64,000 nucleotides of DNA, taken from positions 477,001 to 541,000 of the forward strand of contig CALZFC010000015.1 of NCBI GenBank assembly GCA_945643635.1. The letters run 5' to 3'. The notes below the pieces were generated by a model, which saw nothing but the letters and a program-made list of their open reading frames with translations, ran no database searches and was not told the origin of the DNA. The DNA is from Allodiplogaster sudhausi (Eukaryota > Nematoda > Chromadorea > Rhabditida > Diplogasteridae). The translations under genes were made by a program, and so were the position numbers. Of this stretch, positions 33,459 to 41,840 are shown piece by piece; positions within the stretch are counted from its first letter, which is position 1; each line of letters opens with the position of its first letter.

Positions 33459-33730
33459 GGTACAGCATTCAACTACTTTATTAAGAAGCGATCGAATATT
33501 TCTGTGTTTCTTCATGTTTCGTCAAACGTCTGCATATACTTTCCTCATTCCACCTATGGAACATCCATGGTTGTCCCCAAATATCGACTTTACCATAATC
33601 CTTAACCAGGCCCATATAATAATTAAATACTACGCAAATATATAACATATTTTGTGTTAACTTTTGTTTAAAAAAAGTGATGAAATCATATTTGCAGCCG
33701 TAAGAGGTCGTGACAACTTTGTTCGAGCGC

Positions 33731-33734
33731 TTAA
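33731..33734. other. Target-site duplication TTAA, left
   Basis: TTAA immediately precedes the terminal gacagcc; the same four bases follow the other end at 41837-41840. Confidence 0.75.
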
Positions 33735-34405
33735 GACAGCCTATCTGTAAGGGTCGAGCGGGGCGCAATACAGGGCTGCAATGGGAAATTTTTGATTTTT
33801 AAAATTGATGAAAATTTGATCATTTGTACTATTCGACATGCTCTTTAAAATGGTGAAATCGTGATTTCGAAAAAAAATTTTCTTTCGAGATAATAGCGAT
33901 TTACGCTTAAAATTCACATGCCCATATCTCAGTTATTTCTTAAGATTTTTGAAATCTCTTTTTTGTGTTTTATTGATCTTTGTATTCTCTTTAAAAAAGG
34001 TCGCGGTGACGTTTCGTGAAAACAACTTTTAAGCAGCAAAAATCGTATAAATAGATTTAAAAATATGGTTTTTCTGGTTTTTCAGACCAAGTAACCCCCG
34101 CGGGGAGGATAAGCTGTTCATAGAAAGAAAGCCCGTGAAATTTGCTACAATGCGATGTATCTTTAAAAGAATTCTAGGAGGACATATTTTTGGAATATGC
34201 ACTTAAGCAAATATACTCAACTTTAAAAGTACCGTGCAAGAGGTCCGGGTTCGAAGCCCGCTCGGGGCAAAGTTTTTGCAATGTTTTGTAAACTGCCAAA
34301 AAACATATTTTCGATCTAAAATTGATGTCTATTCGTCTCATAGCTCCATAAATTTGCATATGCTTTCCGTTTTCATTCTGATTTCACCAACTGAAAATTT
34401 CTTCA
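33735..34405 (+). repeat. Left TIR (671 bp) with tRNA-like T-arm
   Basis: Inverted copy at 41175-41836 with few differences. At about 34237-34266 it contains gaggtccgggttcgaagcc then cgctcggggca, resembling the variable loop, T-arm and 3' acceptor strand of a tRNA (B box ggttcgaa). Confidence 0.9.
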
Positions 34406-34599
34406 TAGTAAACTGCGCTCAGTTAACATGTTTATATATGTATATATATTTATCGACATCAAATAAATTAATGTAACGACACTTGGAAAGTCAATTTCAG
34501 TCGTTATTAAAAGCTTCCTGGATAGAAGTAATAAGTAAAAGACGAGGAAGCATTTAGAAATGACTTAAGCAAAATGGAGAAGTTGGGGAGGGAAAAAGA

Positions 34600-35165
34600 A
34601 GAGTAGACACTTGTAGCCTGACAATGAGCGAGCTGTTGCACATTGTGCCCTATATTGCGGATGGTCGAGGATCTGTGTAGGCGACGATGGGCATTGGATT
34701 GCGGGGCGCAAGTGCCCCTCGATAATTAGGGTAGTACTGCACCTATAGCAATCAACATTATCTAAATATGAAAATGAATAAATTCTAACCGGCACCACAA
34801 TGGTTTCGAGAGGGTGGACGCACAGTCCTCTGCTTTGAACGGTTGGCAGAGTGCCATCGAGGCGGCGGCCCAATCTTGTTTCAATTCTGGTCGCCTCCTG
34901 CGCTCTTATCTAAATTAATAGACCAATCATCATCATTTACTAGTGGATATACCTGATTCCTGGATACAGACGTATCGAGGAGCCATTGTTGACCCCAATG
35001 GGTGCCTCCTGGAAGCACTCGCCGTGCATGAAGAACGCCTACTGGCGATCGTCGGAGGGCGCTCTGAATAGCTTGCATCCCAGCATCGCCCGGTAGCAAT
35101 ACGTCGGGGCAGACATCAATGAGGAAGGCAAGTTGCGGCTGGTACGACATCTCTCTTCGGAAGCA
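34600..35165 (-). pseudogene. Broken minus-strand coding remnant inside the transposon
   Basis: Between 35165 and ~34935 one frame reads YCYRAMLGCKLFRAPSDDR, a TAG, then FFMHGECFQEAPIGVNNGSS and LYPG; a second frame is open over the same bases (SYQPQLAFLIDVCPDVL). Splice-like junctions lead to 34905-34792 (PELKQDWAAASMALCQPF ... LWC) and to ~34740-34640 (QYYPNYRGALAPRNPMPIV). The exon-like composition suggests a captured host gene fragment. Parent not identified. Confidence 0.35.
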
Positions 35166-35189
35166 CTCACACAGCGAAAATTTGTCTGA

Positions 35190-35985
35190 ATGACTGCCAG
35201 GGAGGAGACTTGTGTACTTGGAAGCGAAAGACCCCCTCCACTCTCTCTCTCTCTCTCTATCTCTCTAATGACTGAAAGGGAGGAGAGTTCGTGTTCTTGG
35301 AAGCGAAAGTTTATCTCTCTCTGTAACGACTGCCAGTGGGAGAGTTCGTGTTCTTGGAAGCGAAAGTTTATCTCTCTCTCTAACGACTGCCGGGCGGGAG
35401 GTTTCGTGTTCTTGGAAGTGACAATTTATCTCTCTCTGTAACGACTGCCAGCGGGGAGCGTTCGTGTTCTTGTCCTCGTCCGTCATAGTTGCCACGTCGA
35501 CCATAACAAAGTCGAACTCGTCATAGTCCTTTGAGTGCACTGGCATCTTACCGTCTCTGAAAATGGCTTTGAATGAGGCTATGAATTGACACAGCGAAAG
35601 CCTGAAAAAGTTCTATCTGAATGACTGGCAGGGAGGAGACTTTGTGTTCCTTGAAGCCAACGTTTCTCTCTCTCTCTCCCTAAATGCTGCCAGGGCGGAG
35701 ACTTCGTGTTCTTTGAAGCGAAAACTTCCCTCTCTCCCTAATGACTACCAGGCAGGAGGCTTCGTGTTCCTTGAACCGAAAGTTTCTATATCTCTACTGT
35801 AATTCCATGGGGGAGACTTCGTGTTCTATGAAGCCAGAGTTTCTCTCTCTCCCTAATGACTGCCAACGGGGAGCGTTCGTGTTCTTGGAAGCGAAAGTTT
35901 ATCTCTCTCTGTAACGACTGCCAGCGGGGAGCGTTCGTGTTCTTGGAAGCGAAAGTTTATCTCTCTCTGTAACGACTGCCAGAAA
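35190..35985 (+). repeat. Minisatellite, 58-base unit, ~12 copies, inside the transposon
   Basis: Units of the form taacgactgccagcgggg, agcgttcgtgttcttgg, aagcgaaagtttatctctctctg. Two adjacent copies at ~35865-35980 are identical; others are diverged or truncated. 58 is not a multiple of three, so it is unlikely to be coding. Confidence 0.85.
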
Positions 35986-36393
35986 AGATTATGTACATCC
36001 TTTACGGCAATGCATGTTAACACAATAAAATAATATGAATCATATGTCCACATGACAAAGACAACAGAAATAAAAAAAGACAAATGAAAGATACAGGGAA
36101 ATAATGTCATGGCGAGGAGTTAAAGTGCATTTCTTTCGCTGTCTCGCCGGTGTTCTTCTCCAAGCAGGCTCCCTGCGGAGCCAAAAAAAAATTCTGCCAT
36201 GAAATGCTTGAGCCCGCCCCCTTCTTCCCTGAATGCATTCGTTTGACATCTTTCTATCGCTAGCGAAGCTGGGCGGAAAAGGCTTGCCGGCAGCTCAGAA
36301 TATCATCATTTCCCGCAAAAAAAATTTTTATTACATAAGTTCTAAGTATTTTGATTTAATTGTTTAAACCATTCTACATTTTCTTGCAGAGTC

Positions 36394-39300
36394 ATGTTTG
36401 GCAGGAAACTGTCAAACTTTCGTCAAATTCTTTGTCTTATAACATGCATTCTCGCAACTTCTTATGCGGCGCCGAAGGGTCGGTACAAGCGCACTGGCGG
36501 TCTTGATGACATCACCAGACTCGATTCGGACACCTTAGAAGAACAGAGTCAACATCGGTGCTACTTCAGCATCAAACAGCAAACAAAGAAAGAAACAAAG
36601 GAGCGGCCAAGGTTTTCAACAGTTTCGACCAAGTGCGAAGGAAAGCTCACGAAGTAAGCAGTTCTTTACGAGCAAAAATTGCCTATCATGTTCTGCTTCA
36701 GGATGATTGAACTTCGTGACAGGGAATTTGACCAACTTTTCGGCACCTCGAATATGCTTGATCTCATATTAAGCCGTGGAGCTGGAGAGTTTGAATGGGA
36801 TTTCGAAAGCGAAGTGGAGGTTTATCAACGCAAGCTCTGAACTACAAGGCCGACTATACGATGGCAAAAACATAGGCTACATCATTTAGGTACAAGGAAT
36901 TGGACAGCGCATGATATGTGAGAGACATATCAGCGAACTGGCTACTGAATGGGACAACTCGGTCAAGTACTACCACTTCAAGCGAAGAAAGCCTACCATG
37001 AAGAAAACTTGTTCTCTACCTGTATCACATAAGAAAGGTCCGCTTTTTTTATCTTACATAATATAATTGCAATTCGTTGGATGAGCTAATGGCTTTTGAA
37101 ACCTATTTTCAGAAAAATCTTCCTGTGATATTGACATAAATTTAAAAAAAGAAGCTAGAATCTTGTGAATAATTTTAGCAAGCGAATCTTCAGTCACGGA
37201 AACGCTGCATTTTGTTGATGCAGACGACGCAAACGGTACATCCGAAAAATGAGAGACAGTCAAGTAATCATATGTCGTTATAGATGGTGCCGCCACATTG
37301 GCTAAAAGTGATGTTACAAGGGATGAGGCGCACGCTGTTCTAGACATAGAAGGAATTCTTTTACATCCTGGCCTTCGTAAGTTTATTATGTTATTATTGA
37401 ATGTCCACAAAAATAAAAAAAGGTAGCTTATTTCTCTTCCTTTACAGCTGTCTGTACGGCTCATAAGAACGTATTGAAAAAATACGCTGCTCAACATGCT
37501 GTGCAATCTGCTGGCTTCAAGTTTAATCCACCACTAATTAATAATCGCTTTGCGCAAACACAGATCGTCAACAAAGACCAACAAGATTTTCTGCCACTGT
37601 CTCAAGAAAACGATCCTTCATATTTTCCACCGACAGATGCGCCACCGATGAAACGCACACCTTCAATAGTCGATGTCACTGTGAAGAGAACGTTTCTCAG
37701 TTTCCTGGAGTCTTTAGGAATCAAGCATATGGAACGCCGCAAAGATTTCAAGGATCTCGAGGACAGGACACAACGTCAAAAGGCGCAGAACCTGCTAATG
37801 GCTTTTCAAACCGCATACAAAATTGTGGCTCCAGATTCTGTGTCAAAGCTCAAGGAAATGGTGGAATCGTCAAGCAACGAAGGTCTTTATGAAAGAAGGC
37901 GGAGCGACAAATACGAGTCATTATTGCAAAGCATCGTGGAGCAATATCATGCCACAACAACTCGGACTGAAAAACTTTACGTACTCTCAATGATTGCCCC
38001 GAAAATATCACTACAGGAAACCCAACGCTACATCCCAGGGTTATCCAAGTTTTTCTACACCAAAGCTAAGAAGATGGCCGCGCGTGGACGAGTCGAAGAA
38101 GTGAAAGAGAGGAAGCGTGAGCGATACGATGCCCACAGTGTCAATATGTTCATTGATTTCATAACCAGGTATGTATGTGTATTCCCAGGCTCTCCTATAC
38201 CAAACAAAGAGATATATTTCAGCTATAAGGTAACAACAACGTTGCCTTTTGGAACAAGATCTTCAAAGTTATCCGACGGCACAACTTTTGAATACCCTAA
38301 CACATTGCGCTTACAGTCCGCTACGGAAATTATAGCTCTTTTCCAAAGATAAGTTTTTTAAACCTGTTTATAACTGAAATAATGTTCAAGTTGTTCCTTT
38401 TTCTCTCTCAGGGAGATGCACGATAAAAACGAGCTCATATCTCTGAGCGAAGCATCAATGTACCGGATAATCAAAGTCTGTGGAGCGACTAAGAGAAAGG
38501 CACTTCAAGGCGTTGACTTCTTCGTCGCCGAGGCGATGGAAGTGTGTAAAACACTAAATGAAACATATTTTAATTAAAATTAATTTTATTTTCGGCTTTC
38601 GATAATTCCCTGCAAATTCTTGATGAACTTGTCGAAAGTAGTGCTATTGACGACTCCTGGCGCTCGACTCTAAGAAGAAGATTGTTGGAATCAAAACAGT
38701 ACTTAAGAACTGACTATAAGGCAAGCGGGAACACCTAATAGGAGTCAACTCATATTATGGGCATATTTGCAGGTGCATATCAGGCACGAATCTCGCGTTG
38801 CGGACCATTGTGTAAAGCATGGCCTAAGCGACCCAGTCGACGCCGCATTCTCTGAGGACTGCTCCGCTGATATTTCTTCAAAACACCACAGCCACGACAT
38901 GCTGTGCGACAGGTCATAGATTTTTTTTTAAATTATACAACACTATTTTGCACAAATAAAAGTTGTTTTCAGGTGCGAATCGCCGCAGTTAACGTTGGGT
39001 AACCTGCGCGAAACTGTTGCAAACCTGTATACAGCTGCTAATTTCGCTGCGCAGAAAGAAGGCGGACTTCTGAGAGAAGCGAAAGCACGGGACTTGGAAC
39101 TCAAGTTGAATGATATTTATCGAATCGAAGAGAACGTTGAAGAACTGAAGCGGCATCAGTTACGAACAACGGCGAGCGAAGCAGATCGGGATAGAATTGT
39201 GACGGAACTCCAAGAAAATCAAGCGCTCATAACTCTTGACTGGGCGATGAAACTCCTGCCAATGTTTGCTCGGGAAAAAACAACAGACTTCTTTGGAAAA

Positions 39301-41039
39301 CGAGGATTTTCCTGGCACGTGACTCATATACTTGCGCGGCGCAACGCAGAATATAAACAGCACTCCATGTACCACGTCCTCAACAGCGAAACACAGGTAG
39401 ACCATTGATGTTAAGATGTCAAATGTAGTGTTTTATTTTCTTTTTGAAACCTTAAATCGTAACCGATTTTGCAGGACACTATCGCCGTCACAGCCATTCT
39501 CAATCATACCCTGCAAATTTTACACAAAGGGGGGATAACATCTGTATTCTTGCGAAGCGACCAGGCAGGTGGGGAGAGTATAATGAAATAGACGAGTTGT
39601 ACATAAGATTTTGAGGCTGCTACAAATCGGCAGCAACTCTTGGCAGCATGAAAGAACTTTCACGGTCCTCTGGAGTCAAAATCGTCGGCTACTATTTCTC
39701 CGAGACTCAAGCTGGGAAAGGACCATGCGATCGGATGAGTGCATTGGCGAAGAGAAAATTGCGGAACTACGTTGATAGTGGAAAGGACGTAACCACTCCA
39801 AATGAAATTTTGGCAGGAATAACTCACGGAAAACCGCTACGTGCAGTCTCGGTTTACACGGGAAGCATTAGAAGAGGAGAAGCGTCTAAGGCCAAAATTG
39901 CCGGAATAAGGAAGTATAACACGTTCCTATTTGAAGAAACGGCACTTCGAGTTCATCGATATTCTACTATCGGTATCGGCAAAGAGATCGACTACTCATC
40001 TCTACAACACAATGAAGGAGAGTTCATCACCGATTCATCTGGAGGTTGCCTGGACACGACATCTGAACTATGCTGGTTGGGGAGAGAAGGCCAACCAATC
40101 CGAGGCGAGGTCACGCCGGACCATGGCCGTGATCGTAATGAAGAAATAGATGATGAGGCCTGCCGCGCTCCTGAAGATGCCGAATACACTCTCACGGGAA
40201 GTTGCCCTGAATATGGGTATCTTTACAGATGCCCAGAAGAAACCTGTGGAGCTGAATTCTTGCAAGCCCACAATCTCGAGAGACATCTCCTTTTTGGCAA
40301 ACATAGGGCAATTTCCGAGAGGCTGACTCTTCGGGATTATGTTCTGAAGCGGTACGGCATGTGTATCGAAGGAGAAAAGATTGAGCAGGCATATTCCGAA
40401 GTCGACGAGGCAATCGAGTCGCTAGCAGAAGTGACAGATAACGGGCTTCGTTTGCCACAAGGCTGGGCACTTCGCGAGCATAAGAAGGGCACTCGACTTC
40501 CACCCAGGTCTAAGACGTATGTGATCGAAGCGTTTAATGATGGCCTTCGTACGGGCACTAAACATGATCCTCGACAGCTGGAGAAGAAAATGCGCAAGGA
40601 AATCGACGCAGCTGGAAAATTACTCTTCTCACCGCCAGAACTTCTCAATTACCAGCAGATAGCAAGCATTTTCGGAAATCTTGCCTCGAAGAAGAGACAT
40701 GCAAATGTGCCCGACTTGGATCAATCAACAACTACAACGACACCGCAACCAACATCTGTGAACGTCTTAGACGAGCTTAATGAACTGTTCGATACGGAAG
40801 GTGATATCATTGAGGAGGCTCAATCGGAACCGCTTTTTGGGACTGACTTCGACGAATTTAGACAACTGATAGAGAATGACGTTGAGTACCCATCTGAGAA
40901 GGCAGATCCAAAAAGAAATCCCACAGCCACGCAAACGGAATCACCTGAGGAGCTCTCGAATGAAGACGTATTTGAGCCTGTAGACATGAGCGGGTCTGCC
41001 CAGACAGCACCCAGACGCGTCCACGATGAACTATTCTGA
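36394..41039 (+). CDS. Transposon-encoded protein with putative D-D-D catalytic core and C2H2 finger
   Basis: Thirteen exons join in frame: 36394-36653, 36702-36819, 36890-37037, 37179-37235, 37284-37376, 37448-38168, 38223-38348, 38412-38541, 38595-38720, 38773-38912, 38973-39396, 39475-39568, 39616-41039; 3861 bases, 1286 residues. Middle part: FIDFITS, TLPFGTRSSKLSDGT, ALQGVDFFVAEAM. Core: ALITLDWAMKLLP (D729), GKRGFSWHVTH, SVFLRSDQAGCYKS (D810) and SETQAGKGPCDRMSALAK (D851), with strand/helix settings like the acidic residues of RNase H-fold transposases. A C2H2 finger follows (Cys1018, Cys1023, His1036, His1042), then GWALREHKKGTRLPP ... YQQIASIFGNLASKKR and an acidic tail. It matches, from memory, a family of long uncharacterised proteins common in cnidarian and mollusc genomes. 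Splice oddities: donor after 38348 is AT, acceptor before 38595 is CG, donor after 38720 is GC. Catalytic role is inference. Confidence 0.75.
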
Positions 41040-41174
41040 CCATTAGTCATGATAATCCCTACATATTTGTTCATTGATGAGCCCCTCAAGAGACTTGAGA
41101 AATGCTTTGCACTTTCGAATCACGAAGCTAAAATGATTCTATAATTGTGCACCTTTGTTGGAATAAAAACATGT

Positions 41175-41836
41175 TGAAGAAATTTTCAGTTGGTGAAATC
41201 AGAATGAAAACGGAAAGCATATGCAAATTTATGGAGCTATGAGACGAATAGACATCAATTTTAGATCGAAAATATGTTTTTTGGCAGTTTACAAAACATT
41301 GCAAAAACTTTGCCCCGAGCGGGCTTCGAACCCGGACCTCTTGCACGGTACTTTTAAAGTTGAGTATATTTGCTTAAGTGCATATTCCAAAAATATGTCC
41401 TCCTAGAATTCTTTTAAAGATACATCGCATTGTAGCAAATTTCACGGGCTTTCTTTCTATGAACAGCTTATCCTCCCCGCGGGGGTTACTTGGTCTGAAA
41501 AACCAGAAAAACCATATTTTTAAATCTATTTATACGATTTTTGCTGCTTAAAAGTTGTTTTCACGAAACGTCACCGCGACCTTTTTTAAAGAGAATACAA
41601 AGATCTATAAAACACAAAAAAGAGATTTCAAAAATCTTAAGAAATAACTGAGATATGGGCATGTGAATTTTAAGCGTAAATCGCTATTATCTCGAAAGAA
41701 AATTTTTTTTTCGAAATCACGATTTCACCATTTTAAAGAGCATGTCGAATAGTACAAATGATCAAGTTTTCATCAATTTTAAAAATCAAAAATTTCCCAT
41801 TGCAGAGGGCAGATCGACCCTTACAGATAGGCTGTC
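41175..41836 (-). repeat. Right TIR (662 bp)
   Basis: Inverse of 33735-34405; the tRNA-like segment is retained at about 41309-41340. Confidence 0.9.
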
Positions 41837-41840
41837 TTAA
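41837..41840. other. Target-site duplication TTAA, right
   Basis: TTAA directly after the inverted terminus ggctgtc. Confidence 0.75.

Follow-up and report, generated by a model that had tools for sequence, protein, structure and literature searches.

We analysed a 64,000-nucleotide window of the nematode Allodiplogaster sudhausi genome (assembly GCA_945643635.1, contig CALZFC010000015.1, positions 477,001 to 541,000, forward strand), in which the unit at positions 33731–41840 is very probably an 8.1-kb cut-and-paste DNA transposon. It has terminal inverted repeats (TIRs) of approximately 670 bp, TTAA borders, and many near-identical copies in the genome. Its single spliced gene encodes a predicted transposase with a ribonuclease H (RNase H) fold and three catalytic aspartates (D-D-D), which likely acts at TTAA.

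Borders, repeats and genomic copies of the element

The unit measures 8110 bp with a TTAA at each border, leaving 8102 bp between the two. The original prediction had described an 8102-bp element with TIRs of approximately 665 bp and TTAA outside both ends, which agrees well with the measured borders. These are defined by the following features, together with an internal array.

33731..33734, left TTAA, from the sequence and the start points of other genomic TIR matches; presumed target-site copy
33731..34405, plus strand, left TIR, 675 bp
about 35185..36003, 58-bp tandem repeat array (minisatellite, also delimited as 35256–35982) within the element and 5' of the gene
41175..41840, minus strand, right TIR, 666 bp
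41837..41840, right TTAA, from the sequence and the both-end TTAA of 20 other copies; presumed target-site copy

The TIR arms pair in three blocks of 27 nt (100% complementary), 106 nt (98%), and 536 nt (100%), with an overall agreement of 97.3% over 676 columns. The inner 536 bp are identical between the arms, and the sole larger difference lies approximately 28–46 bp from the tips. The terminus following the TTAA reads GACAGCC, and the element ends in GA...TC. With TTAA occurring at 415 positions of the window (0.65%), the chance of finding it at both ends is about 4e-5. Between the arms lie the minisatellite and one plus-strand gene.

When the left end of the element was searched against the 352-Mb assembly of 382 contigs, 467 candidate places were obtained. 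The best 40 were scored, comprising the window and at least 39 others with 99–100% identity, plus one short 75% match; all copy numbers are lower bounds. The matches started at window position 33730 or 33731 in 37 of the 39 other places, and at query positions 19 and 29 in the remaining two. Twenty of the 39 places were examined first, and three more (L037, L038, and L039) were added later. Both ends were seen in 18 of the first 20 loci, and exact TTAA flanked both sides in all 18, the end pattern allowing two substitutions over 27 bases. The size between the TTAAs ranged from 2608 to 6483 bp in these copies. L022 and L028 showed one end with its TTAA, the L022 match stopping close to the inner boundary of the right TIR. 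Among the added loci, L037 is a second full-length copy of 8101 bp, one base less than the window copy, and L039 is a copy of 7419 bp, each with TTAA at both ends, while L038 is a more distant, rearranged relative with one end within the examined stretch. TTAA consequently stood at both borders of the window copy and of 20 of 20 other two-ended copies. Of these 20, L037 nearly equals the window copy in length, and the remaining 19 are shorter by more than a few bases.

The flanks of the 18 copies and the window were mutually unlike, except for one 20-nt match, and two flanks resembled other DNA among the examined loci. The mismatch to the window was 0.09–0.71% in the 17 copies compared, and the spread was therefore recent. 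Relative to the window (n = 17), one deletion junction was present in 14 copies, two in two copies, and none in L037, and one junction was common to L011, L016, and L026. In a search with the coding part, 117 candidate places were found, and three of the best 40, which were scored, reached 96%. A chance origin of the TIR/TTAA structure is ruled out by the copy number and the consistent boundaries. Further copies with the same TIRs and TTAA had been proposed as a check that the repeats and the gene belong together, and the full-length L037 and the shorter copies with the same ends show that they form one element. Three loci (L010, L012, and L028) carry an inverted right-end copy behind the left tip, representing fold-back forms.

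The genome also contains a sister family of TTAA-bordered elements whose tip resembles that of the window element. At L015, a copy of the window element directly adjoins another TTAA-bordered unit (L015 3429–5794, 2366 bp), and one TTAA is shared by the two. This unit has long inverted repeats (arms of 500 and 232 nt), and a BLAST comparison (E <= 1e-3) of its 2366 bp with the window element returned nothing. The tip TTAAGAGAGCCTCTCTGTAAGGATC, which occurs in two other loci (L020 6918; L028 9635), is similar to the window tip TTAAGACAGCCTATCTGTAAGGGTC, and shuffling the window five times produced no such tip on the one strand searched.

As a separate observation, a stretch resembling a tRNA T-arm (GGTCCGGGTTCGAAGCCCGCTCGGGGCA, window 34240–34269) lies inside the TIR and occurs in both arms. 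ARAGORN found no tRNA anywhere in the window, the Rfam scan of the window returned no RNA gene, and a permissive Rfam scan restricted to the left TIR yielded a single small nucleolar RNA match (E 0.39), far under the gathering score. Four minus-strand open reading frames upstream of the gene had no Pfam family above the cut-off.

The predicted gene and its protein family

The automatic exon search over-split the gene, and a manual model was used in its place. This predicted model comprises 13 exons, and its 1287 codons, the last being the stop, correspond to 1286 amino acids. It reproduces the exon and codon counts given originally, as well as the residues D729 (LDWAMK), D810 (RSDQAGCY), and D851 (GKGPCDR), with 40 residues separating the last two. 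The exons are all on the plus strand and rest on the exon model together with the support named in each line.

36394..36653, exon 1, hydrophobic, signal-like start; support weaker than for the core exons
36702..36819, exon 2
36890..37037, exon 3
37179..37235, exon 4, least certain of all exons
37284..37376, exon 5
37448..38168, exon 6, relatives
38223..38348, exon 7, relatives and copies; donor after the exon not GT
38412..38541, exon 8, relatives
38595..38720, exon 9, relatives and copies; acceptor before the exon not AG, donor GC
38773..38912, exon 10, relatives; Cys/His cluster DHC...C.H.H...CxxC, completed by exon 11
38973..39396, exon 11, alignment; D729, first predicted catalytic Asp
39475..39568, exon 12, alignment; D810, second predicted catalytic Asp
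39616..41039, exon 13, alignment; D851, third predicted catalytic Asp, C2H2-like finger, and C-terminal part

The introns span 47–141 bp, and 10 of the 12 are bounded by GT-AG or GC-AG. The donor of intron 7 (38349) is not GT and the acceptor of intron 8 (38593–38594) is not AG, two sites that the original prediction does not mention. Since both sites are identical in all four independent copies found to retain the region (window, L009, L037, and L039), an assembly error in the window is unlikely. Apart from these sites, the frame is open in the two full-length copies. The window protein is colinear with its relatives across the non-canonical junctions, the best match being P0001 of Caenorhabditis nigoni (32% identity, 1147 columns). 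The non-canonical sites and the colinear protein together indicate either unusual introns or a family-wide defect. The hydrophobic, signal-like protein start (window 36394–36480) is odd for a nuclear enzyme, and the same simple hydropathy limit was passed by 9 of 134 relatives.

Three protein searches (E <= 0.001) returned 9, 13, and 275 relatives. The best 120 of the 275 were listed, and the hosts and names given here come from the matches listed. The hosts among them were Caenorhabditis, Mytilus, Saccostrea, Pinctada, Branchiostoma, Actinostola, Oculina, Acropora, Pocillopora, and Porites. The source names were hypothetical, uncharacterised, unnamed, or C2H2, with few exceptions including THAP4, Cep192-like, and cilia- and flagella-associated. 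In a tree of 38 rows (37 of 134 proteins and the window protein), the window protein grouped with seven Caenorhabditis rows with a support of 96/92. One Mytilus coruscus protein (P0062), named THAP4, carries PF05485, the THAP domain, in a precomputed list, a possible domain fusion.

The three proposed catalytic positions are strongly conserved. Among rows with a letter in a 53-row alignment, the first position was Asp in 52/52, the second in 52/52, and the third in 52/53 (one Tyr), and a Glu stood 12 residues after the first Asp in 52/52. Only 35–40 residues separate the second Asp from the third residue in this alignment, and the Cys/His clusters before the first Asp and the C2H2-like finger after the third were mostly kept. 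Simple motif patterns detected all three motifs in 68 of 135 proteins (the 134 and the window protein) and none in 7, many of the proteins being fragments.

In Pfam, neither the window protein nor any of 20 relatives scanned singly matched a family at the cut-off. When 27 relatives were scanned at E <= 0.1, with E-values but no family cut-offs given, ten unconnected families were matched, none of them a named transposase family, the best being Rad33 (3.2e-4, one member) and Phage_TAC_4 (4.6e-4, three members). DUF7869 (PF25273) appeared below the cut-off in 2 of the 20 relatives (P0044 675–722 and P0048 750–794), in register with the second Asp and ending at its motif, and could itself be an RNase H transposase domain related to that of the family. 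NCBIfam gave a single match far under the cut-off, in three proteins, and a sequence search of solved structures returned zinc-finger proteins and one weak MED15 row only. Scans of viral contig and genome contig collections with the 53-row profile gave 40 and 74 pattern matches, none of which was confirmed as a relative. A literature search by words rather than by sequence, covering few subscription papers, found no title or abstract start describing the protein family.

The predicted structures of two relatives (769 and 1111 residues) contain an RNase H-like core. The original prediction had proposed such a fold with three acidic residues, which, if right, would tie this uncharacterised family to a transposase function. 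The fold predicted in these relatives, the conserved aspartates, and the unity of TIRs and gene across copies support both proposals. The element carries the marks of DDD/E cut-and-paste transposons, namely the TIRs of a mobile unit and three conserved acidic residues, and the corresponding RNase H-fold catalytic domain is predicted in the two relatives.

Proposed mechanism and alternative readings

A cut-and-paste D-D-D transposon is the simplest reading of these parts, from which we infer binding, cutting, joining, and any current activity of the transposase. The zinc-binding and N-terminal parts of the protein would bind the long TIRs and pair both ends, and cleavage at the TTAA borders would rely on metal ions coordinated by D729, D810, and D851. 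By analogy with piggyBac, the free ends would then be joined to target DNA at a TTAA, the two strands being joined 4 bp apart, and repair would leave TTAA on each side; the TTAA on both borders would be due to this proposed stagger. In P elements, internal deletions arise from abortive gap repair after excision. A similar interruption of repair may have produced the copies that lost internal sequence but kept their ends, and these copies could subsequently have moved in trans. For piggyBac itself, a structural study describes how a D-D-D transposase melts TTAA, with a TTAA remaining on either side (PMC7351741).

Three groups had originally been listed as makers of TTAA duplications, namely piggyBac, Kolobok, and Sola3. 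Filing under piggyBac was rejected, since no piggyBac family, for which Pfam includes a transposase profile, appeared among the matches of the 27 relatives (E <= 0.1) or the window protein (E <= 1), and the termini do not match. Kolobok failed as well, with C/DxxH between the second Asp and the third residue in 0 of 50 rows and a third residue that is Asp in 52/53, not Glu. Because Sola3 remains as a TTAA and D-D-D group after these two failed, the element can be filed with a known group, and on balance we lean towards its being a member of Sola3. In that case the mechanism would be unchanged and only the element family would be new. Sola was reportedly described by Bao and colleagues in 2009 as three groups with D-D-D transposases and 4-bp duplications. 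Sola3 is used as a class in bivalves, with 64 elements counted in one source (PMC10294476), and for insect miniature inverted-repeat transposable elements in another (PMC5199201). Against this placement, no positive sequence link was seen, no Sola3 sequence having been compared.

The proteins may instead represent an undescribed superfamily of D-D-D cut-and-paste transposons that extends across cnidarians, molluscs, lancelets, and nematodes and whose proteins have until now been annotated as uncharacterised or C2H2, a proposal we hold only tentatively. The Pfam results, the near-exclusive zinc-finger matches among solved structures, and the mostly uninformative source names favour it. Several Repbase superfamilies, including Sola, are to our knowledge missing from Pfam, and the Pfam absence is therefore a weak point in its favour; the two members touching DUF7869 in register with the second Asp count against it. 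In its fullest form, which we consider rather less than probable, the uncharacterised C2H2 animal family would be the transposase of this superfamily, with TTAA targeting independent of piggyBac and Kolobok. Its hallmarks would be long TIRs and GKxxCDR as the third catalytic motif, and it would include a nematode-related member that has amplified recently and may still be mobile.

It is also possible, although less likely than not, that the copies in this genome are non-autonomous, their gene being dead through two unspliceable introns, and that a related intact element at another location mobilised them. The non-canonical splice sites shared by all four copies found to retain them, the predominance of shortened copies, and the presence of the sister family with related TTAA tips fit this view. 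Opposing it, the otherwise open frame of the two full-length copies is colinear with relatives, and non-canonical introns do occur.

Under the preferred reading of a cut-and-paste D-D-D transposon, a family of mostly unnamed animal proteins gains a concrete predicted function, the near-identical dispersed copies being evidence of movement, and D729, D810, and D851 are named as mutation targets. TTAA targeting by a piggyBac-unlike protein would make it possible to ask whether TTAA choice and clean excision have evolved repeatedly. If the element belongs to Sola3, it provides a complete, recently copied reference element with an exon structure.

Comparison with known transposons

The element resembles piggyBac in having TTAA at both ends and, by prediction in its family, an RNase H fold with D-D-D, as described for piggyBac in the same structural study (PMC7351741). 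PALTTAA2 of Caenorhabditis, listed as PALTTAA2/PiggyBac in one source (PMC1431705), may derive from elements like the window transposon. The likeness to Kolobok consists of TTAA and the 5'-RR...YY-3' termini given for that group (PMC9587614), the window element having GA...TC.

The termini of piggyBac begin with 5'-CC, whereas those of the window element begin with 5'-GA and belong to TIRs of approximately 670 bp. Kolobok has a zinc finger inserted between the second Asp and the third residue, for which the window family has little room because only 35–40 residues follow the second Asp. Sola3, as a group described by TTAA targets and D-D-D, shares these features and animal hosts with the element.

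The VIA lists contained mostly retroviral integrases, and the absence of other transposases there is uninformative. Compared with the retroviral integrase core and the Mos1 transposase, identity was approximately 9–16% in the matched rows, and the folded relatives of the window protein have 769 and 1111 residues and extra Cys/His clusters. A further difference is that the window element is a TIR DNA transposon.
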